From: Marilutibacter penaei
Lineage (GTDB): Bacteria > Pseudomonadota > Gammaproteobacteria > Xanthomonadales > Xanthomonadaceae
NCBI RefSeq assembly: GCF_014145395.1
Contig: NZ_JACHTE010000005.1
Coordinates: 62,001 to 126,000, forward strand
Direction: 5' to 3'
DNA length: 64,000 nucleotides
A program made the translations under genes and the position numbers. Below the pieces are notes generated by a model. That model was not told where the DNA came from. It saw only the letters and a program-made list of their open reading frames with translations, and searched no databases. Positions 2,229-47,901 of this stretch are shown piece by piece (the first letter of the stretch is position 1; each line of letters begins with the position of its first letter).

Positions 2229-3419
2229 TTACTTGATGATCTTGGCGACGACGCCGGCGCCGACGGTACGGCCGCCTTCGCGGATCGCGAAGCGCAGACC
2301 CTCGTCCATCGCCACCGGGTTGATCAGCTGGACGACCATCTTCACGTTGTCGCCCGGCATCACCATCTCGGTGCCTTCCGGCAGCGTCACCGCACCGGTG
2401 ATGTCCGTGGTGCGGAAGTAGAACTGCGGGCGGTAACCCTTGAAGAAAGGCGTGTGACGGCCACCCTCGTCCTTCGACAGCACGTACACCTCGGCCTCGA
2501 AGTCCGTGTGCGGCGTGATCGAACCCGGCTTGGCCAGCACCTGGCCACGCTCCACGTCGTCACGCTTCGTGCCGCGCAGCAGCAGGCCCGCGTTGTCGCC
2601 CGCCTGGCCCTGGTCCAGCAGCTTGCGGAACATCTCCACGCCCGTGACGGTCGTCTTGGTGGTCGGACGGATACCGACGATCTCGATTTCGTCGCCCACC
2701 TTGATCACGCCGCGCTCGATTCGGCCGGTCACCACGGTGCCGCGGCCCGAGATCGAGAACACGTCCTCGACCGGCATCAGGAACGCCTTGTCGATGTCAC
2801 GCTCCGGCTCCGGAATGTAGCTGTCCAGCGCTTCCACCAGCTGGATGATCGCAGGCACGCCGATCTCCGACTGGTCGCCTTCCAGCGCCTTCAGCGCCGA
2901 ACCCTTGATGATCGGGGTGTCGTCGCCCGGGAAGTCGTACTTGCTCAGCAGCTCGCGCACTTCCATCTCCACCAGCTCCAGCAGCTCGGCGTCGTCCACC
3001 ATGTCCGCCTTGTTCAGGAAGACCACGATGTACGGCACGCCCACCTGGCGGGCCAGCAGGATGTGCTCGCGCGTCTGCGGCATCGGACCGTCAGCGGCCG
3101 AACACACCAGGATCGCGCCGTCCATCTGCGCCGCACCCGTGATCATGTTCTTCACGTAGTCGGCGTGGCCCGGGCAGTCCACGTGCGCGTAGTGGCGCGT
3201 CGGGGATTCATATTCCACGTGCGCCGTCGAGATCGTGATGCCGCGCGCCTTCTCTTCCGGCGCCGCGTCGATCGAATCGTACGCCTTGAACTCGCCACCA
3301 AAACGCTCCGCGCCGATCTTCGTCAGCGCCGCCGTCAGCGTGGTCTTCCCGTGGTCAACGTGACCGATCGTGCCGACGTTCACGTGCGGCTTGGTGCGCT
3401 CGAACTTACCCTTGGCCAT
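2229..3419 (-). CDS. tuf: translation elongation factor EF-Tu
   Basis: 396 residues, full length. EF-Tu carries aminoacyl-tRNA to the ribosome as a GTP-bound ternary complex. The G1 motif GHVDHGKT (about residues 18-25), G3 DCPGH and G4 NKAD are all intact, followed by beta-barrel domains 2 and 3 ending [11 protein letters not shown]. The upstream tRNA-Thr, tRNA-Gly and tRNA-Tyr genes match the tufB-type operon of enterobacteria. Proteobacteria often carry a second tuf near rpsG-fusA, outside this window. Confidence 0.99.
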
Positions 3420-3462
3420 GGTTGTCGCTTCTCGTTTTGGGACGGTTGTTACGGTGGAAATC

Positions 3463-3538
3463 TGGTGCTCACGACTGGAATCGAACCAGCGACCTCCTCC
3501 TTACCAAGGAGGTGCTCTACCGACTGAGCTACGTGAGC
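3463..3538 (-). tRNA. tRNA-Thr (GGT)
   Basis: 76-nt tRNA with encoded CCA. The acceptor GCTCACG pairs with CGTGAGC, and the anticodon stem CCTCC/GGAGG encloses loop TTGGTAA (anticodon GGT). It is the third tRNA of the Tyr-Gly-Thr-tuf transcript. Confidence 0.98.
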
Positions 3539-3575
3539 GAAACGGGTTGTCAGGACAGGTGGCGCGCTGCAGCAA

Positions 3576-3649
<74 letters not shown>

Positions 3650-3731
3650 ACCGGGGATCCTGCCTGGGTACTGCACCCGGCCGCTGGTAAGGCGTCCGGT
3701 TGAACCTGCCACCGCCGGCCGGGCCGGAAGG

Positions 3732-3817
3732 TGGTGGAGGGAGGTGGATTCGAACCACCGAAGGCGTAAGCCAGCAGATTTACAGTCTGCCCCCGTTGGC
3801 CGCTTGGGTATCCCTCC
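3732..3817 (-). tRNA. tRNA-Tyr (GTA)
   Basis: 86-nt class II tRNA with a long variable arm and encoded CCA. The acceptor GGAGGGA pairs with TCCCTCC, and anticodon GTA lies in GCAGACTGTAAATCTGC. It is the first gene after the promoter at 3831-3859. Confidence 0.98.
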
Positions 3818-3830
3818 AAAAGAGCCCGCA

Positions 3831-3859
3831 ATTTTGGCGACTGCCCGCGGGCTTGTCAA
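3831..3859 (-). promoter_or_regulatory. sigma70-type promoter of the tRNA-Tyr/Gly/Thr-tuf operon
   Basis: On the minus strand a perfect -35 TTGACA (3854-3859) is followed by 17 nt and -10 CAAAAT (3831-3836), then a GC-rich stretch just before tRNA-Tyr. The perfect -35, optimal spacing and GC-rich discriminator are typical of strong, stringently controlled stable-RNA promoters. Transcription would begin about 6-7 nt before the mature tRNA-Tyr 5' end. Confidence 0.8.
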
Positions 3860-3911
3860 CGCATTGGCCGGATTATTTTACGCTCCGCGGCTGTTGCACG
3901 TCAGGCGCCGG

Positions 3912-13651: not shown

Positions 13652-15340
13652 ATGCACGCCGACCCCCGACTCGCCGCGCGCGACGCCGTGCGCCGCCAGC
13701 CCGGCCACCCGATGGCCTGGATCCTGCTGGGCGACGCCGAGCTCGAGGCCGGCGATGCCCGCGCCGGCGAAGCCGCCTGCCGTCGCGCACTCGCGCTGGC
13801 GCCAGGGCATCCCGAGGCGCTCGCGCGGCTGGGCCGGGCCTTGTCGATGCAGGGCCGGCACGCCGAGGCGGCCGGGAGCTTGCGCGCCGCCGCCGACGCG
13901 GCGCCCGGCCACCCCGGCATCCAGGTCTGGCTCGCCCACGTGCTGGAGGATGTCGGTGAAGCAGAAGCCGCCGCCGAGGCCTACGCGCGCGCCCATGCGC
14001 TGGCGCCCGACGAGCCGCAGCTCGCCGCCTACCTGCTGGCCTGGCGACGCAAGCTCTGCGACTGGCGCGACCTCGACCGCCTGTCCGCGCAGGTCCGCGA
14101 CGCGGTGCGCCGGGGTCGCGCGGCCGTCGAGCCCTTCGCCTTCCTGAGCGAGGACGCCAGCGCGGCCGAGCAGTTGCAATGCGCGCGCTTGCGTGCCGCA
14201 CCACTGGCCCGGCACGTGCCGCCCCTGCCCTCACCGACGGCACGGTCGCCGGGTCCGCTACGCGTCGGCTTCCTGTCGAACGGCTTCGGCGCGCACCCGA
14301 CCGGGCTGCTCACCGTCGCCCTGTTCGAGGCCCTGCGCGCACACGACCTCGACCTCCACCTGTTCGCGCTCAACCCGGACGACGGCAGCCCGATCCGCCA
14401 GCGGCTCGCCGCCGCCACGACCCTGCATGACGCCAGTGCGAGGCCGCACCGCGCGGTGGCCGAAGCGATCCGCGCGGCCGGCATCGACGTGCTGTTCGAC
14501 CTGCGCGGCTGGGGCGGCGGTGGCGCCCCCGAAGTGCTGGCGATGCGCCCCGCGCCGGTGCAGGTGAACTGGCTGGCCTACCCCGGCACCAGTGGCGCGC
14601 CCTGGATCGACTGCATGCTTGCCGACGGCTACGTGCTGCCCGCCGGGCTCGAACCGCACTTCAGCGAGCGCGTGGTCCGCCTGCCGCGCGCATTCCAGCC
14701 CTCGGACACCCGCCGCGAAGTGCCGCCCGCGCCCACCCGGGCCGAGTGCGGCCTGCCGGACGAGGGCGCGGTCTATTGTTGTTTCAACAACAGCTACAAG
14801 CTCAACCCGCGCAGCGTTGACCGCGCGCTTGCCGTACTGAGCGAGGTGCCCGGCAGCGTGCTGTGGCTGCTGTCCGGGCCCGGACGTGCGGACGAGCGCC
14901 TGCGCGATCACGCGGCGTCGTGCGGTATCGAACCCGACCGCCTCGTCTTCATGGCCAAGCAACCGCACGCCGACTACCTGGCGCGCCTGCAGCTCGCCGA
15001 CCTGTTCCTCGATACCCACCCCTACAACGCGCACACGACCGCGTCCGATGCGCTGTGGGTCGGTTGCCCGGTGCTGACCTGCCCCGGCGACACCTTCGCG
15101 TCGCGCGTCGCCGGCAGCCTCAACCATCACCTGGGGCTGGACGCGATGAATGTCGCGGACGACGACACCTTCATCGCCGAGGCCGTCCGGCTTGGGCGCG
15201 ACCCCGCAGCGCTGGCGGCGCTGCGTACCGAGGTCGCGCGCCTTCGCGATGAGGGGACGCTGTTCGACATGGACGGCTTTGCACGGGATTTCGCCGACGC
15301 GATCCGCCGGATGGCCGTGCCCGACCCGACTACAGCTTGA
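13652..15340 (+). CDS. TPR / O-GlcNAc transferase-like (SPINDLY, GT41) glycosyltransferase
   Basis: About 562 residues. The N-terminal third holds three to four TPRs (such as GEAACRRALALAPGHPEALARLG). The C-terminal part is a GT41-type catalytic region: RVGFLSNGFGAHPTG, DVLFDLRGWGGGGAPEVLAMRPAPVQVNWLAYPGTSG, VYCCFNNSYKLNP and DLFLDTHPYNAHTTASDALW with GCPVLTCPGDTFASRVAGS. Bacterial members transfer sugars to proteins or glycans; the substrate here is unknown. I chose the ATG at 13652; GTG 13637 and TTG 13595 are in frame upstream. The 3' end overlaps the convergent anti-sigma gene by 11 bp. Confidence 0.88.
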   Translation: MHADPRLAARDAVRRQPGHPMAWILLGDAELEAGDARAGEAACRRALALAPGHPEALARLGRALSMQGRHAEAAGSLRAAADAAPGHPGIQVWLAHVLEDVGEAEAAAEAYARAHALAPDEPQLAAYLLAWRRKLCDWRDLDRLSAQVRDAVRRGRAAVEPFAFLSEDASAAEQLQCARLRAAPLARHVPPLPSPTARSPGPLRVGFLSNGFGAHPTGLLTVALFEALRAHDLDLHLFALNPDDGSPIRQRLAAATTLHDASARPHRAVAEAIRAAGIDVLFDLRGWGGGGAPEVLAMRPAPVQVNWLAYPGTSGAPWIDCMLADGYVLPAGLEPHFSERVVRLPRAFQPSDTRREVPPAPTRAECGLPDEGAVYCCFNNSYKLNPRSVDRALAVLSEVPGSVLWLLSGPGRADERLRDHAASCGIEPDRLVFMAKQPHADYLARLQLADLFLDTHPYNAHTTASDALWVGCPVLTCPGDTFASRVAGSLNHHLGLDAMNVADDDTFIAEAVRLGRDPAALAALRTEVARLRDEGTLFDMDGFARDFADAIRRMAVPDPTTA

Positions 15341-15998
15341 ACAGCGGCTGCAACGTCCGCGCGATCCAGCCCGAGAAGCGCAGCGGTGCATCGGTGGCCG
15401 CCACGCAGATGCAGGGGACACCGGGCGCCGTGACCGGCTGGTGTTCGACGTCGCCATCCAGGTCGGCGACGTCGCCGGGCGCGAAATGGCCCAGCGCGTC
15501 GTCATAGGCCCCCTGCAGGATCATCGTCAGCTCGTTGCCGCCGTGCGTGTGCATGGGGACGCTGCGTCCGGGTGCGGTCCGCAGCAGCATCAGGTGGCCG
15601 TCGTCGACCCCCTGCGCGCGCACATGGTGGACGCCCGGGCCGATCATCCGCCAGCGCAGGCCGCTGAAGCGCTCACCGAAGTACGGACGCAGGGACCGCG
15701 GGATCAGGTCGGGGTCCGTCCGCGCCGGAGCCGCTGCGGCCGGGCGCGCGGCATGCGCGACCGGTGCGCCTTCGGCGTGCAGGCGTTCCAGCAGGGCCTG
15801 TCGCGCCCCATCGGCCAGGGGTGCTCCTTCCTGCTGCGCCACCAGCGCGCCGCCAACACGCTCCGCTCGTTCGAGCTCCTGCCTGCACGCAGCGCACACT
15901 GCGAGGTGCGCTTCGACCACGGCGGAGAACGCGAGCGGCATCGCACCGGCGGCATGGCCGAGCAGGGTCGATGCGTCGAGATGATGATGGGGCTTCAT
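15330..15998 (-). CDS. chrR: ChrR-type zinc-binding cupin anti-sigma factor
   Basis: 222 residues. The N-terminal anti-sigma domain has His6, His31, Cys35 and Cys38 (HLAVCAAC), the zinc ligand set known for ChrR of Rhodobacter sphaeroides. After an Ala/Pro-rich linker comes a cupin fold with PMHTHGGNELTMILQGAYDD and a later HFAPGD. ChrR holds its ECF sigma inactive and releases it on singlet-oxygen stress. It overlaps the sigma gene by 4 nt (ATGA), so the pair is translationally coupled. Confidence 0.92.
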   Translation of the reverse strand: MKPHHHLDASTLLGHAAGAMPLAFSAVVEAHLAVCAACRQELERAERVGGALVAQQEGAPLADGARQALLERLHAEGAPVAHAARPAAAAPARTDPDLIPRSLRPYFGERFSGLRWRMIGPGVHHVRAQGVDDGHLMLLRTAPGRSVPMHTHGGNELTMILQGAYDDALGHFAPGDVADLDGDVEHQPVTAPGVPCICVAATDAPLRFSGWIARTLQPLFKL

Positions 15999-16627
15999 GG
16001 CGCCTCCCCCAGGCTTGCCTTGAGTTTCATGAACGCGCGACGCAATGTCGATTTGACCGATCCGAGCGGCATGTCGAGCTCGGCGGCGATCTCGCTGTGG
16101 CTCTTCGCCTCCAGGTAGGACATGCGGATCAGCCGCGCCTGGACGCCCGGCAGCGCGCCGATGGCGCGGTCAAGGCCGACATGGTCGGTGAAGGCGTCGG
16201 GCGATACCGCGCCTTCGTCCTCGGCATGCAGGGCCATCCAGTCATCGCCATCGTCGACGGCGGTCCAGTGGCCACCGCGCCGGCGTCCGTCGATGTACAG
16301 GTTGCGGGTGATGCGGAACAGCCAGGTGGTGACGCTTGCGCGGGCCGGGTCGAACGTGCCGGCGCGGCGCCAGGCCCGCAGCATGGCTTCCTGCACGAGA
16401 TCATCGGCCTCGACGGCGCTGACGCCCAGGCCCAGCAGGTAGCGCTTCAGCCGGGGCGCGAAGTGGTCGTGGATCTGCATGAATGCATCGGTATCGCCAT
16501 GGTCGGCAACCCGGGCGATCAATGCGCTCCACTGGAGCGCGTCCGAAGCATCGGTGCTCTGGCGGCTGGACACGCGCGGCGAGGCCCGCAAGGGCGTCAC
16601 TTTCCTCGTAGCCGAATCGATCGCCAT
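15995..16627 (-). CDS. ECF RNA polymerase sigma factor, ChrR-partner type (RpoE/ECF11-like)
   Basis: 210 residues. The region 2 core is FAPRLKRYLLGLGVSAVEADDLVQEAMLRAWRRAGTFDP...TWLFRITRNLYID, and region 4 is MSYLEAKSHSEIAAELDMPLGSVKSTLRRAFMKLK. The ATG at 16627 has an AGG Shine-Dalgarno-like element just upstream; a start 10 codons earlier is possible. Partnered with chrR, it is expected to respond to singlet oxygen or organic peroxides. The promoter at 16682-16711 resembles the known target motif, suggesting autoregulation. Confidence 0.93.
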   Translation of the reverse strand: MAIDSATRKVTPLRASPRVSSRQSTDASDALQWSALIARVADHGDTDAFMQIHDHFAPRLKRYLLGLGVSAVEADDLVQEAMLRAWRRAGTFDPARASVTTWLFRITRNLYIDGRRRGGHWTAVDDGDDWMALHAEDEGAVSPDAFTDHVGLDRAIGALPGVQARLIRMSYLEAKSHSEIAAELDMPLGSVKSTLRRAFMKLKASLGEAP

Positions 16628-16681: not shown

Positions 16682-16711
16682 GTCTTACGTTCGATCGCCC
16701 CGATCGGATGC
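16682..16711 (-). promoter_or_regulatory. candidate ECF-type promoter of the sigma/chrR pair
   Basis: Minus-strand -35 GCATCC (within TGCATCC, 16706-16711), exactly 18 nt, then CG followed by -10 TAAGAC (16682-16687). From memory, the R. sphaeroides RpoE promoter is TGATCC-N18-TAAGA-like. The same layout lies upstream of the desaturase operon and the fasciclin gene. The predicted leader is about 48 nt. Confidence 0.6.
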
Positions 16712-16731
16712 ACTCGCCCGTCCCGGTCGAG

Positions 16732-17292
16732 TCACGGCACGGGCGTGGTCCCGGACTCGGGCCAGCGCTGCGGCACGCGGCGCAATGTCGACGGGTCGTA
16801 TCCCATCTCGACGACCTTCCGAAGCAGGGCTGCATACCGGTCCTCCGGCAGCGTCGGCGTGCGCGCCATGATCCAAGCGTAGTCGCGCTTGCTGCGGGCG
16901 ATGATCGTCTCGGAATGGTCCGGCGACAGGTAGGCGATGACGTACTCCGCCTTGATGGGCCAGACGAACTGCATCCCCCAGACCGCGTTGCCCGTGCCGG
17001 GCTCGACGAAGCCGGTTGGTGTCAGGGTTTCGACCGTCGCATTGAAGCCGCCCTGCCGGAAGCGATAGACCGTGTCGATGTGGCCTTCGGGGGACAGCGT
17101 GTAGCTTTCCACCGCGTTGAACGCCTCGCGATCCATCGGCGTGGGCGTCGATGCGATCACATACCAGTCCCCCATGAACCGCTCGAGGTCGACCCGGGGC
17201 ACCGGCTCGATCGGCGGCTGGCTGGCGCAGCCGGCGACCAGGCCCAGCACGGCGGTCGTCCAGGCCAGGCGTCTCGTCCTCCAGCGGCTCAT
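16732..17292 (-). CDS. lipocalin-family outer-membrane lipoprotein (Blc-like)
   Basis: 186 residues. A signal peptide with lipobox VAGC is followed by the lipocalin motif DLERFMGDWYVIASTP (G-x-W) and the later KRDYAWIMARTPTLPEDRY typical of Blc. Blc binds lysophospholipids and fatty acids at the outer membrane. The start ATG overlaps the stop of the upstream methyltransferase (ATGA), making it the last gene of the lipid operon. The 104-bp gap to the sigma gene holds that gene's own promoter. Confidence 0.92.
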   Translation of the reverse strand: MSRWRTRRLAWTTAVLGLVAGCASQPPIEPVPRVDLERFMGDWYVIASTPTPMDREAFNAVESYTLSPEGHIDTVYRFRQGGFNATVETLTPTGFVEPGTGNAVWGMQFVWPIKAEYVIAYLSPDHSETIIARSKRDYAWIMARTPTLPEDRYAALLRKVVEMGYDPSTLRRVPQRWPESGTTPVP

Positions 17293-18392
17293 GCGACACC
17301 CCGCGTCGAAGGCCGTGCGAAGCGGTAGTGGGCGACCAGCCACTGCTGGCCGCCGTCGTAGCCGAACAGCTCAGCGCAGGCCATCCAGAACATGCGCCAG
17401 CGCTGGAACCACAGGCGCGCCTGTGCTTCGCCCCCGTAGGCGCCCTCGAGGATGGGCATGAGCGGCTCCCGGGACGCGTCCTGGTTGCGCAGCCAGGCCT
17501 CCGCGGTGCGCTGGTAATGCCGGCCGTCGACCAGCCAGCGCTGCTCCAGGTCGAGATCGCGCTGGTGGTGCAGCAGCGTGTCCACCGCCGGCATCAGGCC
17601 GCCGGTGAAGAAATGGCGACCCATCCAGTTCCCGCGCCCTTCGGTCTCGAACGGATAGGCGGCCCAGCGGTGGGCGAAAATATGGACGAACAGCAATCCA
17701 CCCGGACGCAGCCAGCCCGAGATCCGCGACATGAGCCGCGCATGGTTGCGGACATGCTCGAACATCTCGACGGACACGCAGCGATCGAAGGTGCCGGCGG
17801 GCAGCTCCAGTGCATTGACGTCGCGGGTCAGCACGGTGACGTTGGCGAGTCCCCGTTCCCGGCACGCCTGCTCGATCCAGAGGCGCTGCGATGCCGAGTT
17901 CGAAACGGCAGTGATCCGTGCCTGTGGGTAGCGTTCGGCCATCCACAGGGTCAGCGATCCCCAGCCGCAGCCGAGCTCCAGGATCGATTGCCCGTCGGCC
18001 AGCGCCGCACGCTCGGCATACAGCGCGAGCATCGCGTCCTCGGCGTCGGCCAGCGTGCTGTCGGGCTTCTCGAACAGGCAGGCGGAGTACTTGAGGCGCG
18101 GCCCCAGGCAGTGCCGGAAGAACGCGGCGGGCACCTCGTAGTGCTGCGCATTGGCGGCATCCGCGTGGATGGCCAGCGGGGCGCCCGCCAGCGCCGTCAT
18201 CAAGGCCTGCTGGCGACGTGCCTGGGCTTCGACCCCGCCCGCCTCGCAGGCCGCGAGCCGCGCCGCGCAGAGCCGGCGGATGCCCTGCCGCAGCACGGCG
18301 TCCGGCACCCAGCCGCGCTCGGCCAGGCCGACCAGGCCCGGTGCCGCGCCGTCGCCCCGCAGGCGTGCGGGTGTTGCCACGTGGGTGTTCAT
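17289..18392 (-). CDS. SAM-dependent methyltransferase, cyclopropane-fatty-acid-synthase family (divergent)
   Basis: 367 residues. The SAM-binding loop is ILELGCGWGSLTLWMAERYP, with later VSVEMFEHVRNH and a C-terminal YDGGQQWLVAHYRF. The substrate-side segment reads HYEVPAAFFRHCLGPRLKYSACLF instead of the HYDLGNDFF...MYSSAMW seen in the second paralogue, so it is a distinct subfamily. It could methylate unsaturated acyl chains, as in 11-methyl/furan fatty acid synthesis, but that is inference. ATGA overlaps tie it to its neighbours on both sides. Confidence 0.88.
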   Translation of the reverse strand: MNTHVATPARLRGDGAAPGLVGLAERGWVPDAVLRQGIRRLCAARLAACEAGGVEAQARRQQALMTALAGAPLAIHADAANAQHYEVPAAFFRHCLGPRLKYSACLFEKPDSTLADAEDAMLALYAERAALADGQSILELGCGWGSLTLWMAERYPQARITAVSNSASQRLWIEQACRERGLANVTVLTRDVNALELPAGTFDRCVSVEMFEHVRNHARLMSRISGWLRPGGLLFVHIFAHRWAAYPFETEGRGNWMGRHFFTGGLMPAVDTLLHHQRDLDLEQRWLVDGRHYQRTAEAWLRNQDASREPLMPILEGAYGGEAQARLWFQRWRMFWMACAELFGYDGGQQWLVAHYRFARPSTRGVA

Positions 18393-19183
18393 GCGATGTC
18401 CTCCTGTCGGCGCTCCTGGGGAAACCACGGGAACAGCATCGGGGTGCGTGCCCGGTACGCACGGTAGGCGTCGCCGCGCGTCCGCTCGGCCTGGGCTTCG
18501 GTGAAGGGAATGCCGCTGAGGTAGCGCAGGAACAGGTACATCAGCACCGGCCCCAGCCACGCGAGTGCCATCCAGGGTGAGCCGATGGCCAGGCAGACGT
18601 AGGCCCACCACTGCAGCCATTCGAAGAAGTAGTTCGGGTGCCGCGAATAGCGCCACGGGCCCACGTCGCAGACCTTGCCCGCATTGGCGCGGTCCGCGCG
18701 GAACGCCGCCAGCTGCCGGTCGGCAACGGCTTCCCCGACGAGGCCCGCCGCCCACACCAGTACGCCCGCCACCAGCCACGGCACCGACACGACCGGGTTG
18801 GCGGCGACGGCGAGAAAGGGCAACGCGAACAGCACGACCAGCAGCGCCTGCGCCTGGAAGAACAACAGGAACGCCCAGCCGCGGTCCCGCAAGTAGTGGC
18901 GGAGATGGCGATAGCGGCCGTCCTCGTCCTCACTCCGCACCCTCGCCCACAGGTGCAGGGCCAAACGCAGCGACCAGACGCCGGCAAGGATCGCCAGCAG
19001 CAGGCGTGGCCGCGGATCGCCCGACCCGACCCACGCAAGCCAGATGCCCGCGAAGCCCATCCCCGCCGCCCACAGCACGTCGACGATGCCGGCATTGCGG
19101 TGGCGCCGCTCCCAGGCCCACCCAGCGAACATCACCGCGGACATCACGCACCCGATCGTGCCCAGGGCCCAGAGCGGGGTCAT
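18389..19183 (-). CDS. DUF1295 integral membrane protein (steroid-reductase/ICMT-like fold)
   Basis: 264 residues with about six to seven hydrophobic segments (for example PLWALGTIGCVMSAVMFAGWA and FLLFFQAQALLVVLFALPFLA). The C-terminal signature WRYSRHPNYFFEWLQWWAY resembles DUF1295 and the isoprenylcysteine methyltransferase/sterol reductase superfamily, whose NADPH- or SAM-binding site lies in this part. No substrate is known. Co-transcription with cfa-type methyltransferases, desaturase and flavoprotein suggests a reductive or methylating step on membrane fatty acids. ATGA overlaps on both sides. Confidence 0.88.
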   Translation of the reverse strand: MTPLWALGTIGCVMSAVMFAGWAWERRHRNAGIVDVLWAAGMGFAGIWLAWVGSGDPRPRLLLAILAGVWSLRLALHLWARVRSEDEDGRYRHLRHYLRDRGWAFLLFFQAQALLVVLFALPFLAVAANPVVSVPWLVAGVLVWAAGLVGEAVADRQLAAFRADRANAGKVCDVGPWRYSRHPNYFFEWLQWWAYVCLAIGSPWMALAWLGPVLMYLFLRYLSGIPFTEAQAERTRGDAYRAYRARTPMLFPWFPQERRQEDIA

Positions 19184-20472
19184 GCGTCGTCTCCCGCATC
19201 GCGATCCACCCACCGCATGCCCCTCGGTCGTGCCCCCGGTCGGGCGAACAGCAACTGCGACACGCCAATCGAGCGCTCGCGGAACCCGCCTTCGCAATAC
19301 GCCAGGTAGAACAGCCACATGCGCAGGAAACGCTCGTCGCGGCCATGCGTGAGGGCGTCCGCGCGCCGCTCCAGCAGGCTGTGGCGCCAGGCCTCCAGCG
19401 TCCGCGCATAAGACAGGCCGAAGTCCTCCAGGTCGACCAGCGCGAGGTCGCTGGTGCGGCGCTTGGCCACCAGCATGGCCTCGACCGAGGGAATGAAACT
19501 GCCCGGGAACACATGGCGCTTGATGAAGTCCACCGACGCCAGCGCCTGTTCGTAGCGATGGTCCTCGATGGTGATGGCCTGCACCAGCGCCAGGCCGTCG
19601 TCCGCCAGCAGGCGTTCCAGCGCCGCGAAATAGACCGGCAGCTGCGCGGCGCCGATGGCCTCGATCATCTCGATCGAGACCAGCCGGTCGTAGCGCCCTT
19701 CCAGGTCGCGGTAGTCGCGGCACAGCACGCGCACGCGGTCCTTGAGGCCCGCTGCGGCCACGCGCTCGCAGGCCAGCGCGTATTGCGCCTGCGAGATCGT
19801 CGTCGTGGTGACATGGCAGCCGAAGTGCCGCGCGGCATGCAGGGCGAAGCCGCCCCAGCCCGTGCCGATCTCGACCACGTTCATGCCGGGCCCGAGCCCC
19901 AGCTTGCGGCAGATCGCGTCGAGCTTGCGCGCCGACGCCTGTTCCAGCGTGTCGGCCCCGTCCCGCCACATCGCCGACGAATACATCATGTCGGGCGACA
20001 AAAACAGTTCGAAGAAGTCGTTGCCGAGGTCGTAATGCGCGGCGATGTTACGGCGCGCGCCGCGCCGGTCGTTGGGGCGGAGCGCATGGAGCGCCCGCAT
20101 CGCCATGCCGCCCAGGCGTGCCGCCCCGCCTTCCATGCCGTCGAGCAGCGCGCGGTTGCGGACCAGCAGGCGCACCAGACCGACCAGGTCGTCGCTGTCC
20201 CAGTGGCCATCGCCAAAGGCTTCGCCCGCGCCGACGCTGCCATTGAGTGCCAGCGCACGGTAGAAGCGCAGGTCATGGACGCGGACATGCACGGTCGTGG
20301 CACCCGGAGCGTCCTGGCCGACTACCGTGCGCCCCATCGGATCCTCGATGCACAGGCACCCGTGCCGTAGCCGTGCCATGTGGTCGAGCAGGCGTTGCCG
20401 GAGCCACCGGTCCAGTGGCCCTGCCCCGGCAACCGGCCGATCTTCGCGACGGGCATCGATGCTCTGGTTCAT
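19180..20472 (-). CDS. cfa: cyclopropane-fatty-acyl-phospholipid synthase
   Basis: 430 residues, full length. It adds a methylene from SAM to the double bond of unsaturated acyl chains in membrane phospholipids. The family block is RRNIAAHYDLGNDFFELFLSPDMMYSSAMW, then the SAM loop VVEIGTGWGGFALHAARHFGC, VSIEMIEAIG and FIKRHVFPGSFIPSVEAM. The N-terminal domain (about residues 20-110) matches the Cfa membrane-binding domain. The start at 20472 overlaps the DUF1365 stop by 4 nt. Confidence 0.94.
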   Translation of the reverse strand: MNQSIDARREDRPVAGAGPLDRWLRQRLLDHMARLRHGCLCIEDPMGRTVVGQDAPGATTVHVRVHDLRFYRALALNGSVGAGEAFGDGHWDSDDLVGLVRLLVRNRALLDGMEGGAARLGGMAMRALHALRPNDRRGARRNIAAHYDLGNDFFELFLSPDMMYSSAMWRDGADTLEQASARKLDAICRKLGLGPGMNVVEIGTGWGGFALHAARHFGCHVTTTTISQAQYALACERVAAAGLKDRVRVLCRDYRDLEGRYDRLVSIEMIEAIGAAQLPVYFAALERLLADDGLALVQAITIEDHRYEQALASVDFIKRHVFPGSFIPSVEAMLVAKRRTSDLALVDLEDFGLSYARTLEAWRHSLLERRADALTHGRDERFLRMWLFYLAYCEGGFRERSIGVSQLLFARPGARPRGMRWVDRDAGDDA

Positions 20473-21266
20473 CCTCGTTCCTCTCCTGCCGTTCCGAAGC
20501 CGCGCACGCCTGCATCCGGGTGGGTGTGAACGGGCACGCCCTTCAACCAGAGACGGAGGGCCTGCCAGTGGATCGCCCCGAAAACCTGCGCGGTCATCAG
20601 CGGGTACCGCCACAGCAGCCGTGCCAGCTGGCGGCCGTCCAGCGGGCGGCGACGCAGCCACAAGGTGGCGTCGAACTCGGAGTTCTCGCCCTGCCAGGCC
20701 TTCATGTGCACGTGCAGGTCCTCCCCGGGCGTCGTGAAACGCCAGTCGTAATGGCGCTCCATGCCCATGAAGGGCGAGACATGGAAGGTCTTGTCGAACT
20801 GCCAGGCCCACGAGCGTCCGCGGCGCTCCGCTCCTTCAAGGGGCAGGACATACGCATGACGCTCCTTCCAGGGCGTGTTGGTGATGTCGGCCACGATCGC
20901 CTGCAGCGCACCCGCGGGACCGCCATGGCAGTAGTAGAAGGTCACCGGATTGAAGACATAGCCGGCATAGCGCGGATGGCAGAGCATGCGGATCGGGCCA
21001 TCCGGACGCAGGCCGCAGGCCTCTTCGACCCGGGCCATGACCGCTTCGCGCAGACCCAGGTGCCCCGGGCCCAGATAGTCTTCGCGCCGCCACTCGGCGA
21101 GGTTGCGGCCCTTCGAGGACCACAGCAGCCGCTTGCGGAACAGGCCCTCGATCTCGTCCAGGTCGAGGAACAGCTGTGCCAGCGGGAAGGTGAATTCGTG
21201 CCGTCGCGGCAGGTGCCGGCGGTGGGTGACGTGGCCTTCGTAGATCGCGCTGGACGTCGCACTCAT
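20469..21266 (-). CDS. DUF1365 protein
   Basis: 265 residues. Recognisable DUF1365 features are YEGHVTHRRHLPRRHEFTFPL at the N terminus, CHPRYAGYVFNPVTFYYCH in the middle and KTFHVSPFMGMERHYDWRF. The biochemical role is unknown, but the family is almost always next to an FAD-dependent oxidoreductase and a cfa-type methyltransferase, as here, so it is expected to act with them on acyl lipids. ATGA overlaps on both sides. Confidence 0.92.
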   Translation of the reverse strand: MSATSSAIYEGHVTHRRHLPRRHEFTFPLAQLFLDLDEIEGLFRKRLLWSSKGRNLAEWRREDYLGPGHLGLREAVMARVEEACGLRPDGPIRMLCHPRYAGYVFNPVTFYYCHGGPAGALQAIVADITNTPWKERHAYVLPLEGAERRGRSWAWQFDKTFHVSPFMGMERHYDWRFTTPGEDLHVHMKAWQGENSEFDATLWLRRRPLDGRQLARLLWRYPLMTAQVFGAIHWQALRLWLKGVPVHTHPDAGVRGFGTAGEERG

Positions 21267-22540
21267 GCCGCCACCTCCTGTCGCACCGCGACCGCGCCCC
21301 GCAGGCTGGCTTCAAGCGCGCCTGCCGCTTCCACGCCGCTGCGCATGCCGTCCTCGTGGAAGCCCCAGCCCCAGTAGGCGCCGGCATAGAAGGTGCCGCG
21401 GATGCCCTGGATCTCCGCCCGCCTCGCCGCCGCGGCCACCGACGTGCGGGTGAACACCGGATGCGCGTAGCGGCGCACGCGCAACACACGCGACGGGTCG
21501 ACCGCCGCGCTGCGATTGAGTGTCACCACGACGGGCGTCTGCACCGGCAGGCCCTGCAGCAGGTTCATGCAGTAGCTGACCGTGCACGGCGCCCCGGGGT
21601 CGACCGGCACGTGGGCGTTCCATGCCGCCCAGGCCTTGCGGTCTCGCGGGAGCAGGCGACCGTCGGTGTGGAGCACGGCCTCGTTCGGCTGGTAGCGGAT
21701 CGCGCCGAGCAGCTCGCGTTCGATCGGCTCGGGGACGTCCAGCATCGCGAGCGCCTGGTCGGCGTGGCAGGCCATCACGACCCGGTCGAAGGACTCCGCG
21801 CCCCGTGCGTGGCGCAGGTGGATCCCCGCGGCATCGCGCAGCACCCGCTGCACCGGGCAGGCCAGCCGGACATCGACGCGCCACCGGGCCTGCAAGCGAT
21901 CGACATAGCGCGACGAGCCGCCGGCGACGACGCGCCACGGCGACCGCCCGGCCACCTGCAGCATCTGGTGGTGCGCCATGAACGCGACCAGCGATTTCGC
22001 CGGGAAGTCGAGGATCCGGCGCGCCGGCGACGACCACAACGCCGACGCCATCGGCACCAGGTGGTCGTCGCGAAAGGCGGCACCGTATCGGCCCTGCGTG
22101 AGGTACTCGCCCAGGGTCGGGCCATCCCCGGCCACGTCGAGCAGTGCCGGGGCTTCGCGATAGAAGCGCAGCAGGTCGCGCAGCATCCCCAGGAAGCGCG
22201 GGGACACCAGGTTGCGCCGTTGGCAGAACAGGCCATCGAGGGTCGACGCGTTGTACTCCAGCCCGTCCTCGCGCTGCACCGAGAAACCCATCGTGGTGGG
22301 CGCGGTCGCCACGCCAAGCGTGTCGAACAGCGCGGTCAGCAGCGGGTAGTGGTCGCGGTTGTGGACGATGAAGCCGGTATCGACGTCCAGCTCGACGCCG
22401 TCCACCTCGACCGCATGGGTGTCGGTATGCCCGCCGAGCCGGTCCTCGGCCTCGAACAACACGACGTCGTGGTCGCGCCACAGCGACCATGCGGCCGCCA
22501 GGCCCGAGATGCCGCCGCCGATGACCGCGATCCGCGCCAT
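21263..22540 (-). CDS. FAD-dependent amine-oxidase-like flavoprotein
   Basis: 425 residues. The N-terminal dinucleotide-binding fold is RIAVIGGGISGLAAAWSL, with an acidic residue at the end of beta-2 and the DRLGGHTDTHAVEVDG flavin motif. A C-terminal segment GTFYAGAYWGWGFHEDGMRSG binds the flavin. Members next to DUF1365 and cfa are thought to oxidise or desaturate acyl chains; in R. sphaeroides related genes are linked to furan fatty acids (from memory). One base separates it from the upstream desaturase. Confidence 0.92.
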   Translation of the reverse strand: MARIAVIGGGISGLAAAWSLWRDHDVVLFEAEDRLGGHTDTHAVEVDGVELDVDTGFIVHNRDHYPLLTALFDTLGVATAPTTMGFSVQREDGLEYNASTLDGLFCQRRNLVSPRFLGMLRDLLRFYREAPALLDVAGDGPTLGEYLTQGRYGAAFRDDHLVPMASALWSSPARRILDFPAKSLVAFMAHHQMLQVAGRSPWRVVAGGSSRYVDRLQARWRVDVRLACPVQRVLRDAAGIHLRHARGAESFDRVVMACHADQALAMLDVPEPIERELLGAIRYQPNEAVLHTDGRLLPRDRKAWAAWNAHVPVDPGAPCTVSYCMNLLQGLPVQTPVVVTLNRSAAVDPSRVLRVRRYAHPVFTRTSVAAAARRAEIQGIRGTFYAGAYWGWGFHEDGMRSGVEAAGALEASLRGAVAVRQEVAA

Positions 22541-22541
22541 C

Positions 22542-23504
22542 TCAGCGCACCGCCCGGGCCATGACCCACTGCGGCACCGGACGCAGGTCCCAGACCAGGC
22601 CCAGCCGCTCCAGCAGCAACAGCCCGTACCAGGTCAGGTCGATTTCGAACCAGCGGAAGCCCTGGCGCGCCGACCCCGGGTAGAAGTGGTGGTTGTTGTG
22701 CCAGCCCTCGCCAAAGGTCAGCAGCGCCAGCCAGGCGTTGTTCCGGCTGTCGTCGCGGGTCTCGAACCGGCGCCGGCCGTAGCGGTGCGCGAGCGAGTTG
22801 ATGGTCACCGTGGCGTGGAAGAGCACGACGGTGGACACGAAGAAGCCCCACACCAGCATCTGCGGGCCACTGGTGCCCAGGCCCGGCGCCCAGCGCTCCA
22901 GCGCGGCCCCGAGCAGGTACAGGAGCGCGGCCAATGCAACCGGCACCGCTGTGTCGAACCGGTCCAGCCAGCGCAGTTCCGGATAACGCGCCAGATCGCG
23001 GACCCGCCGGCAATCCGTCGCGAAGGCCTCTTCGGTCAGGAACCAGCCCATGTGGCTCCACAGCAGCCCGCGGGGGCCGGGCGCATGCGGGTCGAGGTCG
23101 GTATCCGCATGGCAGTGGTGCCGCCGGTGGTGCGACGCCCACCACATCGGGCCGCGCTGCACGCAGGCCGCCCCCAGCACCGCGAACACGCCCTGGGTCC
23201 AGCGCCCGGTGCGGAAGGCCTTGTGCGAGAAGTAGCGGTGATAGAAGCCGGTCAAGGCGAACATCCGCACCGCGTACAGCAGCACCGCGACGGCGACCGC
23301 GACCGGCGACACACCCACCCAGACGACGCCGAGGCAGCCCAGGTGCAGCGCGACGAAGGGCGTGGCGCGAAGCCAGTCGATCCGGCCCTCCGAAGCGGCA
23401 TCGCGCGACGCGACGGGCGCGCCCGTATCGAACCACGCCCTCAGTCGTTGGGTGCGCACGCCACGGGCATGGGGGCGTGCTTCGGTGTGCATGGGGTCGG
23501 GCAT
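22542..23504 (-). CDS. acyl-CoA/acyl-lipid delta-9-type fatty acid desaturase
   Basis: About 320 residues. Membrane di-iron desaturase with the three histidine boxes HRYFSHK, HHRRHH and HNNHH. Hydrophobic pairs lie around FVALHLGCLGVVWVGV and VPVALAALLYLLGAAL. It would supply the double bond used by the downstream methyltransferases. It is the first gene of the lipid operon. The start at 23504 fits the predicted transcription start near 23529; ATG 23492 is an alternative, and ATG 23540 would overlap the -10 element. Confidence 0.93.
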   Translation of the reverse strand: MPDPMHTEARPHARGVRTQRLRAWFDTGAPVASRDAASEGRIDWLRATPFVALHLGCLGVVWVGVSPVAVAVAVLLYAVRMFALTGFYHRYFSHKAFRTGRWTQGVFAVLGAACVQRGPMWWASHHRRHHCHADTDLDPHAPGPRGLLWSHMGWFLTEEAFATDCRRVRDLARYPELRWLDRFDTAVPVALAALLYLLGAALERWAPGLGTSGPQMLVWGFFVSTVVLFHATVTINSLAHRYGRRRFETRDDSRNNAWLALLTFGEGWHNNHHFYPGSARQGFRWFEIDLTWYGLLLLERLGLVWDLRPVPQWVMARAVR

Positions 23505-23535
23505 GCGCTCGTGTCGGCTCGCGGGATTCACTGCA

Positions 23536-23565
23536 TGCATACGCACGCGGACGGGGTTTGGATGC
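23536..23565 (-). promoter_or_regulatory. candidate ECF-type promoter of the lipid operon
   Basis: Minus-strand -35 GCATCC (23560-23565), 18 nt, then CG and -10 TATGCA (23536-23541). Layout and bases match the motif before the sigma gene (16682-16711) and the fasciclin gene (23615-23644). It gives a leader of about 25 nt to the desaturase ATG. Confidence 0.55.
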
Positions 23566-23614
23566 GGGCGTGCCGCGGGCCACGACCGCAGCGCCCTGGT
23601 CAACGCGGCGTGAT

Positions 23615-23644
23615 GAATCCGAAGCGCAAGCCGCCGCGTAGAGG
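23615..23644 (+). promoter_or_regulatory. candidate ECF-type promoter of the fasciclin gene
   Basis: -35 GAATCC (in TGAATCC, 23615-23620), 18 nt ending CG, then -10 TAGAGG (23639-23644). It faces away from the lipid-operon promoter in the same 201-bp intergenic region, so both flanking units could be switched together. Confidence 0.55.
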
Positions 23645-23705: not shown

Positions 23706-24254
23706 ATGAACCGCAATGCCCTCGCAATCGCGCTTTCGCTCGTCCTCGCCGCACCGCTGGCGGCGTCCCTCCCGCATGCTGCCGTCGCCGGCAGCAAGGC
23801 CGCCATGAGCACCGGCGACGTCGTCGACGGTGCGATGGCCTCCGCCGACCACGAAACACTGGTCGCCGCGGTCAAGGCCGCGGGCCTGGTCGACACCCTC
23901 AAGGGCCGCGGCCCCTTCACCGTCTTCGCACCGACCGATGCCGCGTTCGAAGCCCTGCCGGCCGGCACGGTCGACACGCTCCTGCAACCGCAGAACAAGG
24001 CCAAGCTCGGCAGCGTGCTCACCTACCACGTCGTGCCGGGCAAGGTCGATGCGACCACGCTGGCCGGCCAGATCCAGGCCGGGAATGGCAGTGCCCGCCT
24101 GACCACGGTCGAAGGCGAGGCGCTGGTCGCCCGTCTGGATGGCAGCACGGTCACCCTGACCGACGCGCAGGGCAACACCGCCCGCGTCACCGCCGCCGAC
24201 GTGATGCAGAGCAACGGCGTGATCCACGTCATCGACACGGTCTTGATGCCCTGA
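23706..24254 (+). CDS. secreted fasciclin (FAS1) domain protein
   Basis: 182 residues. A signal peptide (NALAIALSLVLAAPLAASLPHAAVA) precedes a single FAS1 domain with the H1 and H2 motifs: GRGPFTVFAPTDAAFEALP and NGVIHVIDTVLMP, plus VLTYHVVPG between them. FAS1 proteins are extracellular adhesion or stress-linked proteins. A clear AAGGAG ribosome-binding site lies 7 nt before the ATG. Divergent from the ECF lipid operon and sharing its promoter motif, it is likely part of the same regulon. Confidence 0.95.
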   Translation: MNRNALAIALSLVLAAPLAASLPHAAVAGSKAAMSTGDVVDGAMASADHETLVAAVKAAGLVDTLKGRGPFTVFAPTDAAFEALPAGTVDTLLQPQNKAKLGSVLTYHVVPGKVDATTLAGQIQAGNGSARLTTVEGEALVARLDGSTVTLTDAQGNTARVTAADVMQSNGVIHVIDTVLMP

Positions 24255-46458: not shown

Positions 46459-47046
46459 ATGCTCGACGTGGTGAACATCCAGGCGACTCCCGATGCGTCC
46501 GCGGGTCCGGACGAGGCGCCGTCGGCCACCCCCGTCCCGGCGACGCTCGACGCGTTCCTCGCGTCGGTCGGCACGCGTGCGTTCCGCTTCGCGGAAGTCG
46601 CGCTGCGCCAACGCGAGGACGCGCTGGACGCGGTACAGGACGCCATGATGAAGATGCTGGCCTACGAAGACCGCCCCAACACCGAGTGGACGCCGCTGTT
46701 CTGGAGCATCCTGCGCCGGCGCGTTATCGACCTCCAGCGCCGGCGGACGTTCCGGCTCGGCTGGTTGACCGCGGCGCCGCGCCTCGAGGACGGCAGCGAG
46801 GTCGAATGGGCCGACGATGCACCGGATCCATCGCGTGCACATGATGGCCGGGAGGGCTACGCGCGCCTGTCCCAGGCCCTGGGCGCGCTGCCGCCCCGAC
46901 AGCGCGAAGCGTTCAACCTGCGCGTGCTCGAGGAACTGGACGTGGCGACCACCGCCCGGGTGATGGGCTGCAGCGAAGGTTCGGTCAAGACACACCTGTC
47001 GCGCGCCCGCGAGGCGCTGCAACGGCAACTGGAGGAATGGCGATGA
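46459..47046 (+). CDS. ECF RNA polymerase sigma factor
   Basis: 195 residues. Region 2 is weaker than usual (FAEVALRQREDALDAVQDAMMKMLAYEDRPNTEWTPLFWSILRRRVIDLQRRR). Region 4 is clear: LPPRQREAFNLRVLEELDVATTARVMGCSEGSVKTHLSRAREALQRQL. The following genes encode a short membrane protein of anti-sigma type and a DUF3106 exported protein, a set seen in other beta/gammaproteobacteria. GTG 46471 is an alternative start. It is divergent from pntAB. Confidence 0.9.
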   Translation: MLDVVNIQATPDASAGPDEAPSATPVPATLDAFLASVGTRAFRFAEVALRQREDALDAVQDAMMKMLAYEDRPNTEWTPLFWSILRRRVIDLQRRRTFRLGWLTAAPRLEDGSEVEWADDAPDPSRAHDGREGYARLSQALGALPPRQREAFNLRVLEELDVATTARVMGCSEGSVKTHLSRAREALQRQLEEWR

Positions 47047-47453
47047 GCGCCAGGCACGAAATCCCGCACGACCGTGGCGACGCCGCCTTCGACCAGGCGG
47101 CGCGCGACCTGCACCAGGCATCCCTGGCGCACCTGCAACCGGCGACCGCGACCCGCCTGCGCGCGGCACGGCGTGCAGGGGGCAGGACAGCCACGCACGG
47201 CATCCGGCACTGGGGCCTGGCCGGCGTCGCGGCCGCGGTATGCGCGCTGGCCGTCGGTTGGCTCGCGCTGCCGACCGCGCCGGACGCACCGCCTCAAACC
47301 ACGGCCGGCGCCCCCATGCCGGACAACGCGCTCGCAACGGCACTGGCCGACGCGGAAGCGGAAGCGGCACTCGTCCCGTTCGACGAAGACCCTGATTTCT
47401 ACTTGTGGCTGGCCGCCAACGATGACGTCCGCCCATCGATCCTGGAGCGATGA
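47043..47453 (+). CDS. single-pass membrane protein, probable anti-sigma factor
   Basis: 136 residues. A cytoplasmic N-terminal part (FDQAARDLHQASLAHLQPATATRLRAARR) resembles the N-terminal domain of DUF3619-type proteins, followed by one membrane helix (WGLAGVAAAVCALAVGWLAL) and an acidic periplasmic tail ending in EDPDFYLWLAAND. GGAGG lies 7 nt before the ATG at 47043, which overlaps the sigma stop. Position and topology suggest it restrains the sigma factor. Confidence 0.75.
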   Translation: MSARHEIPHDRGDAAFDQAARDLHQASLAHLQPATATRLRAARRAGGRTATHGIRHWGLAGVAAAVCALAVGWLALPTAPDAPPQTTAGAPMPDNALATALADAEAEAALVPFDEDPDFYLWLAANDDVRPSILER

Positions 47454-47454
47454 C

Positions 47455-47901
47455 ATGACTCGCCGCACCCTTCGCCTGCTGGCATTCGCCAGCGCCCTGT
47501 CGATCGCATTCGCCGCTGCGGGCGCGTGGGCGGGTCCGCCCGCTGCGCCCCCGGGCGACGTGGCGCCCCTGCCCGCCTGGGAGCAGCTCACCCCGGCCCA
47601 GCGGGAGGCCCTGGTGGCACCGCTCCGCGAGCGCTGGAACAGCGAACCGCAAAAGCGGCAGCGCATGCTCGATCACGCCCGGCGCTGGCAGGAAATGACC
47701 CCCGAACAGCGCGCCCGCGCCCGGAACGGCCGCGAACGCTGGCAGCACATGGGCCCGGAAGAGCGGGCGCACAGCCGCGTGCTGTTCCGCGAGATGCAGC
47801 AGATGACGCCTGCCCAGCGCGATGCCCTCAAGGCGCAGTGGCGTGCGATGTCGCCCGAACAGAAACGGGCCTGGGTGGAACAGCACCGCGGGAACGATTG
47901 A
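47455..47901 (+). CDS. exported DUF3106 protein
   Basis: 148 residues. A signal peptide (LLAFASALSIAFAAAGAWA) precedes a helical, Arg/Gln/Glu-rich domain with repeated WxxLTPAQREAL / MTPEQRARAR / MSPEQKRAW motifs, the DUF3106 hallmark. It resembles CpxP/Spy-like periplasmic helical proteins in composition. It is the last gene of the sigma operon; its start lies 1 nt past the preceding stop codon. Function unknown, possibly the envelope-sensing or protective output. Confidence 0.85.
   Translation: MTRRTLRLLAFASALSIAFAAAGAWAGPPAAPPGDVAPLPAWEQLTPAQREALVAPLRERWNSEPQKRQRMLDHARRWQEMTPEQRARARNGRERWQHMGPEERAHSRVLFREMQQMTPAQRDALKAQWRAMSPEQKRAWVEQHRGND

Follow-up and report, generated by a model that had tools for sequence, protein, structure and literature searches.

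An RpoE-ChrR regulon of Marilutibacter penaei with a promoter and target genes that appear to be shared with SigK-RskA modules in the same bacterial family

A stretch of 64,000 nucleotides (nt) of the Marilutibacter penaei genome, the whole of which is called the window below, carries the rpoE-chrR gene pair encoding a sigma factor of the ECF11 type and its anti-sigma factor, an operon of lipid genes, and a gene encoding a FAS1 (fasciclin-domain) protein. The comparisons presented here indicate that one promoter, together with its targets, has probably been passed repeatedly between two sigma/anti-sigma modules in the family of this organism (Xanthomonadaceae/Lysobacteraceae, called the family below), and that RpoE-ChrR holds them in the window organism. 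Three promoter sites would belong to a single RpoE-ChrR (ECF11) regulon: ChrR would hold the sigma factor, which upon its release would transcribe its own operon, the membrane-lipid operon and the FAS1 gene. The -35 element of the promoter in the family is G[C/A/G]ATCC rather than TGATCC, with a sigma recognition helix differing at two places. In related genomes, the same promoter goes with the unrelated SigK-RskA pair located beside the same lipid operon; this operon has changed partner several times while keeping its promoter, and the sigma modules appear to be interchangeable. In the window genome, RpoE-ChrR is the only one of the two pairs present, and would hold the shared promoter and targets. 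At the level of sequence comparison, this reading is built on the sites and their conservation, the differences in the -35 element and the helix, the location of the operon beside one pair or the other, and the partner changes on the operon tree.

Conserved Promoter Sites of the RpoE-ChrR Regulon

The window contains three matches in all with the pattern GMATCC-N16-CGTA (versus 0.12 expected), a number reached by none of 100 shuffles. These sites had been pointed out in an earlier reading of the DNA made without database searches (the sequence-only reading), and when both strands were read, all three were confirmed, with 18 nt between the hexamers and CG before the TA:

16682..16711, minus strand: predicted rpoE-chrR promoter, GCATCC-N18-TAAGAC (that is, GCATCC-N16-CGTA), conserved in the family loci
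23536..23565, minus strand: predicted lipid-operon promoter, GCATCC-N18-TATGCA, conserved at ChrR loci and in SigK-linked operons
23615..23644, plus strand: predicted FAS1 promoter, GAATCC-N18-TAGAGG, divergent from the lipid-operon promoter and conserved in the family loci

Each of the three transcription units has its exact match upstream, at promoter distance from its start codon (ATG at 16627 for rpoE, 23504 for the desaturase gene and 23706 for FAS1, these starts being inferred). The lipid-operon and FAS1 promoters diverge, about 50 bp separating their -35 elements.

The family survey comprised 198 genomes scanned for ChrR and RskA_C, and ChrR was identified in 30 of them. From the counts of family ChrR loci, L060 was dropped as it duplicates L143, and L168 as it has no rpoE; L062 and L063 were treated as ChrR loci outside the family. 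The conservation in relatives on which the sequence-only reading had made its proposal depend was found: G[ACG]ATCC-N16-CGTA precedes rpoE at all 31 family loci (24 with GC, 4 with GG and 3 with GA) and the desaturase gene at all 26 family ChrR loci having one. The site is also present before FAS1 at the five family loci (5/5) where a FAS1 gene lies inside the fetched ChrR region. When the spacings from 12 to 20 were compared at 28 family loci (539,356 bases), the 16-nt spacing gave 83 matches, 55 of which precede the three target genes, versus a total of 25 for the eight other spacings. The lipid operon was not found in the fetched ChrR region at five of the 31 loci (G093, G019, G160, G177, and G193), and FAS1 is divergent from rpoE itself in three genomes of a single genus (G019, G093, and G160). 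One genus has an extra lipocalin gene with a G[ACG]ATCC-N16-CGTA site of its own upstream (L149, L150, and L151, around 3300-3900).

In Stenotrophomonas maltophilia (PMC11832516), the loss of chrR raises the expression of smlt2375-2367, the genes visible in the table being up 165- to 313-fold, and this rise reverts when the sigma factor is also removed; the sigma box was inferred by MEME. In the rpoEc-chrR system of this species, a cluster encoding a desaturase, an oxidoreductase, two cyclopropane-fatty-acid (CFA) synthases and a lipocalin is likewise under a sigma factor that ChrR controls, but the cluster is divergent from rpoEc and chrA follows chrR. By analogy with this relative, the lipid operon of the window may also be sigma-dependent. 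Autoregulation and lipid-gene targets were both recognized in the window system in the form of conserved promoter sites.

The autoregulated RpoE-ChrR (ECF11) regulon that had been proposed in this gammaproteobacterium is therefore upheld by the ECF11 clade to which the sigma belongs, by its closest solved relative (Rhodobacter sphaeroides RpoE, PDB 2q1z), by the adjacent ChrR, by the conserved sites, and by the sigma-dependent cluster of S. maltophilia. We regard the window system as a genuine RpoE-ChrR regulon that for the most part resembles those already described. It shares with the ECF11 system of R. sphaeroides the sigma clade (as seen in the tree), the ChrR partner, autoregulation, lipid genes of the cyclopropane-fatty-acid type, FAS1 (RSP_1409), the CGTA, and the 16-nt spacing; Shewanella RpoE2-ChrR and Pseudomonas syringae PSPTO_1043/1042 are further close ECF11 systems. 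The resemblance to the R. sphaeroides motif noted in the sequence-only reading holds for the 16-nt spacing and the CGTA, but does not extend to the usual -35 element TGATCC. FAS1 had also been presented as a member of the regulon not usually discussed, and this novelty has to be given up: the fasciclin RSP_1409 is listed in the table of the R. sphaeroides RpoE regulon (PMC7074977), and an Azospirillum fasciclin is cited as being under RpoE-ChrR (PMC10949492). Two features had escaped the sequence-only reading: the -35 variant, and the promoter and lipid operon common to SigK-RskA in related genomes.

The Same Promoter and Lipid Operon Beside SigK-RskA

RskA_C scored above the cut-off in 57 of the 198 family genomes. 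Among 20 family SigK loci, which were hand-picked and are not a random sample, 19 carry GCATCC-N16-CGTA, with 30 matches versus 2 at all the other spacings from 10 to 22. The 30 matches comprise eleven before the desaturase gene, four before FAS1, five no more than about 250 nt from the sigma start, and ten some 0.5-1.3 kb upstream of that start. The sites of this kind in the family are presumably read by SigK. GCATCC-N16-CGTA is also present at 10 of the 28 SigK loci from outside the family (12 matches versus 5 at other spacings), where some of the sites precede genes of another kind. At five SigK loci (L315, L318, L320, L321, and L323), a frame of about 260 amino acids (aa) starts 56-59 nt after a site located 0.8-1.3 kb upstream of the sigma gene. 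At three loci outside the family (L401, L407, and L416), the site precedes a gene located after rskA, the product of which has some 430-445 aa and contains the motif SSHREAP; it looks like a DUF4331 gene.

Longer SigK stretches were obtained at 20 loci, namely 18 of the first 20 (without G099 and G024), G561 (another family of the same order) and G177; the contig of G160 ends early. In 15 of these stretches, 14 from the family and one from the other family of the order, the lipid operon is located after sigK-rskA and has the same orientation. It consists of the desaturase, amine oxidase, DUF1365, and CFA synthase genes, usually with DUF1295 and a second CFA synthase, and sometimes with a lipocalin. 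GCATCC-N16-CGTA lies 39-90 nt before the desaturase gene in 13 of these 15 operons.

Five of the operon proteins were used to build a tree (41 rows and 1739 columns), which requires five changes of partner, at least four of them forced by well-supported branches; the SigK-linked operon of G145, for example, sits within a fully supported group together with nine ChrR-linked operons. In view of these changes, the operon looks like one orthologous group, the neighboring sigma pair of which has been exchanged repeatedly. The two systems occur together in 3 of the 198 genomes, whereas 8.6 would be expected (p 0.009, without correction for kinship), and in these three (G019, G160, and G177) the operon is located at the SigK locus and was not found in the fetched ChrR region. 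Species of a single genus can differ in the system they hold (e.g., in g3, g11, g16, g17, g29, and g46). In the window genome, ChrR is present, no RskA_C match over the cut-off was detected (there is one at 17.7 bits), and no SigK was found, the best match to the SigK query being the window RpoE itself (34%). The promoter and targets associated with the family SigK, that is, GCATCC-N16-CGTA, the lipid operon and FAS1, are nevertheless all present in the window.

The Mpt83 protein is a FAS1 protein. SigK-RskA (ECF18/19) is known together with mpt83/mpt70 in Mycobacterium and Yersinia, and an mpt83-sigK-rskA cassette with a SigK site has been reported in Gram-negatives as well (PMC7509140); it differs from the window system in its separate sigma clade and its RskA-type anti-sigma factor. 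As regards the 'RpoE-ChrR' locus of Rhodobacter capsulatus, an alphaproteobacterium, the authors note a resemblance to SigK-RskA and report an induction by singlet oxygen (PMC7074977), and this locus is possibly another case of module replacement. No statement about sharing or exchange between ECF11 and SigK was found in the open-licence literature searched for the two systems, FAS1, the promoters and helix specificity, none of the searches being aimed at operon exchange itself.

Regulons are usually viewed as evolving by the gain and loss of sites under a fixed sigma factor. In the family of the window organism, the targets and the promoter would stay in place and the controlling module would be exchanged repeatedly, within a single bacterial family. 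This would provide a natural series in which to study how one sigma factor takes over the promoters of another, the candidate residues being few. It would also account for the fact that, depending on the bacterium, FAS1 and lipid genes are under ChrR or beside RskA.

The -35 Element and the Recognition Helix

The window promoters have the spacing and the CGTA of the ECF11 pattern TGATCC-N16-CGTA, but their -35 element is GMATCC. The first base of this element is G in all the 57 rpoE and desaturase promoters of the family. Among 14 ChrR loci from gammaproteobacteria of other families, 11 have TGATCC-N16-CGTA (16 occurrences) and none has GCATCC-N16-CGTA, while G[AG]ATCC-N16-CGTA occurred twice, both times within the sigma gene. 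The published ECF11 promoters are TGATCC-N16-CGTA in Shewanella (PMC4336711) and for the most part in P. syringae (PMC5507510). GCATCC also appears as the -10 element of an unrelated group (PMC6180224).

The recognition helix of the family ECF11 sigmas is KS[HTSN]xRR in all 31 cases, in contrast to the KSRxRL of the ECF11 systems mentioned above: of the 17 other ECF11 sigmas, 16 have Arg at the third place of the helix and none has it at the sixth. In the family SigK sigmas the helix is KSWIRR in 20 of 20, and the SigK-type sigmas from outside the family have Arg at the sixth place in 28 of 28. The helix changes are thus from Arg to His/Thr/Ser/Asn and from Leu to Arg, the latter at the place matching R176 of Escherichia coli sigma-E, the matching of residues being our own. 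R173 and R176 of sigma-E contact the G at -35 (PMC6713349), a contact which would fit a change from T to G at the first -35 base. The helix changes may have caused that of the -35 element. In a tree computed with the helix columns left out, the family ECF11 sigmas form a clade (support 99) inside ECF11 (48 rows, support 99), to which the window sigma belongs, and SigK stands apart. A KSxxRR helix was found in none of the 12 other sigmas of the window genome that were compared (L001, of 642 aa, was left out of the alignment).

FAS1 as a Probable Second Shared Target

The same site is also frequent upstream of FAS1 in family genomes that have no ChrR, many of which encode a sigma paired with an anti-sigma factor of the RskA type. 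The sample consisted of 90 FAS1 loci, the 30 best matches plus 60 hand-picked further down the match list, from which three with less than 200 bases upstream were dropped. This left 87 upstream regions, of which 58 are those of a single FAS1 subfamily (support 88). Among the 54 rows of this subfamily having ChrR or RskA/SigK in the genome, the site is exact in 45 and differs by one change in 9; G122 and G161 were reclassed as having a system once SigK had been found in both. Among the four rows with neither system, one has the site (G040) and three do not, one genome being 71% complete. ChrR-only and RskA-only genomes are interleaved in the subfamily, and the site is kept in both. The other 29 regions belong to other FAS1 genes and do not have the site. 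The window sigma would be expected to drive FAS1 in this organism.

The G040 genome (L428 G040:C3; L429 G040:C5) has a further sigma with the helix KSHIRR, where GCATCC-N17-CGTA is located downstream of the sigma start; the adjacent gene looks to us like one encoding DUF4394. FAS1-like genes adjoin rpoE-chrR outside the family, in another gammaproteobacterium (L332 2925-3263) and in an alphaproteobacterium (L063 9404-9799).

Weighing of the Alternatives

We are inclined to think that the cupin ChrR and RskA modules replaced each other at least four times over the lipid operon, with FAS1 as a second target, because the family ECF11 sigma came to read the SigK-associated promoter via its helix changes. 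Sharing and exchange are made more likely by the fact that the operon adjoins SigK and by the partner changes on the tree. Several data weigh against the overall reading. At the SigK loci, 18 of the 28 from outside the family have no GCATCC-N16-CGTA, the SigK-linked operons of G017 and G064 have no exact site before the desaturase gene, and five of the 20 longer stretches are without the operon (G125, G069, G122, G096, and G002). As regards FAS1, the association between site and system (Fisher p 3e-9) is confounded by the FAS1 subfamily, since the other 29 regions are those of other genes without the site; the independent-pairs comparison yields three pairs only; and the FAS1 site is present in G040, where the searches found neither ChrR nor SigK-RskA. 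In the main text of the S. maltophilia study, the word 'fasciclin' is absent, and RpoEc was reported to have no effect on singlet-oxygen tolerance (PMC11832516), which makes singlet oxygen a doubtful signal for the window system.

Other such points concern the specificity of the sigma factor. One of six core targets of P. syringae, tctD, has gcATCC-N16-CGTA, where chromatin immunoprecipitation (ChIP) gave a weak score of 4.56 and quantitative reverse transcription PCR (qRT-PCR) an increase of 7.15-fold (PMC5507510), and the -35 switch may be partial. By our reading, Arg is present at the sixth place in 9 of the 12 other sigmas of the window genome; with Arg so common there, the helix change is no less a return to the general ECF state, in which a peculiarity of ECF11 was lost, than a match with SigK. 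The helix and -35 changes also amount to a single event within ECF11. The Arg common at the sixth place and the gcATCC of P. syringae make a clean specificity switch less likely.

The promoter may alternatively have been shared without any switch of specificity, if ECF11 and SigK both tolerate NNATCC-N16-CGTA, the -35 element has drifted, and either pair could always serve. In line with this idea, the ATCC, the 16-nt spacing and the CGTA are identical in the two classes, the second -35 base varies before rpoE (24 C, 4 G, and 3 A of 31), the gcATCC target exists in P. syringae (PMC5507510), and a crosstalk study places ECF11 among the groups with promoters similar to those of other groups (PMC3817407). 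We consider it rather unlikely, however, since the first -35 base is never the T of TGATCC in the 57 family promoters and the helix place matching R176 of sigma-E changed in the same clade.

That the FAS1 site is a relic of SigK control, or is read by another sigma, the true targets being only rpoE and the lipid operon, seems improbable: the FAS1 orthologs of RskA-only genomes do have the same site, but that of the window is intact in a genome without SigK and RskA, FAS1 is divergent from rpoE in the three same-genus genomes mentioned above, and the R. sphaeroides RpoE regulon includes a FAS1 protein (PMC7074977).

Genes of the Locus

The following genes were identified at the locus, all on the minus strand apart from FAS1:

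15330..15998, minus strand: chrR, zinc/cupin anti-sigma factor (Pfam Cupin_7; PDB 2z2s; metal-ligand positions)
15995..16627, minus strand: rpoE, ECF11-type sigma factor (Pfam Sigma70_r2 and r4; sigma tree; PDB 2q1z; recognition helix KSTLRR)
16732..17292, minus strand: lipocalin, last gene of the lipid operon (Pfam Lipocalin_2)
17289..18392, minus strand: second CFA-type methyltransferase (Pfam CMAS)
18389..19183, minus strand: DUF1295 protein (Pfam)
19180..20472, minus strand: protein of the cyclopropane-fatty-acid synthase type (Pfam CMAS)
20469..21266, minus strand: DUF1365 protein (Pfam)
21263..22540, minus strand: flavin amine oxidase-like protein (Pfam)
22542..23504, minus strand: fatty acid desaturase, first gene of the lipid operon (Pfam; start inferred)
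23706..24254, plus strand: FAS1 (fasciclin-domain) protein (Pfam Fasciclin)

Judging from its N-terminus, the FAS1 protein is probably secreted. The closest solved relative of the anti-sigma factor is ChrR (PDB 2z2s, E 1.2e-36); Cupin_7 scored above the cut-off and zf-HC2 below it (20.2 versus 22.2 bits). The window ChrR has H6, H31, C35, and C38, as well as H150, H152, E156, and H186, positions which we take to be metal ligands. The zinc pattern was present in all 28 ChrR sequences examined and the strict cupin pattern in 18 of them.

The region 46460-47900 of the window has a sigma-like gene with a weak match, after which come genes for a small membrane protein and a charged exported protein. 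The weak RskA_C match near 47.2 kb was rejected, as it adjoins a different small sigma gene.

Other Matches in the Genome

The genome-wide scan proposed in the sequence-only reading gave 21 matches with GMATCC-N16-CGTA versus 4 with the reversed pattern, but it was rejected as a definition of the regulon because most of the matches lie inside predicted genes: among the 18 located outside the window, 14 are under a predicted reading frame, one (L020) is in an open frame as read, and three are intergenic, although the reading-frame heuristic over-calls, two of the window sites also being covered by predicted frames. All nine KGATCC-N16-CGTA matches of the genome are likewise under predicted frames. 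The regulon is defined by conservation and not by the motif alone. Chance matching to a short pattern, which such a scan might suggest, can be dismissed almost entirely for the window sites, given their conservation in 31 of 31 rpoE and 26 of 26 desaturase promoters and the enrichment only at the 16-nt spacing.

Two plausibly placed sites were noted elsewhere in the window genome, before genes named by reading their sequences: a predicted beta-barrel protein gene (L017 1501-1526) and a class I fructose-bisphosphate aldolase gene (L023 1501-1526). The site before ppsA (L015) seems too near the start codon. At L020, a run of SE repeats (1750-1840) ends the open frame just upstream of another gene, which we assume to encode a cytochrome b561.

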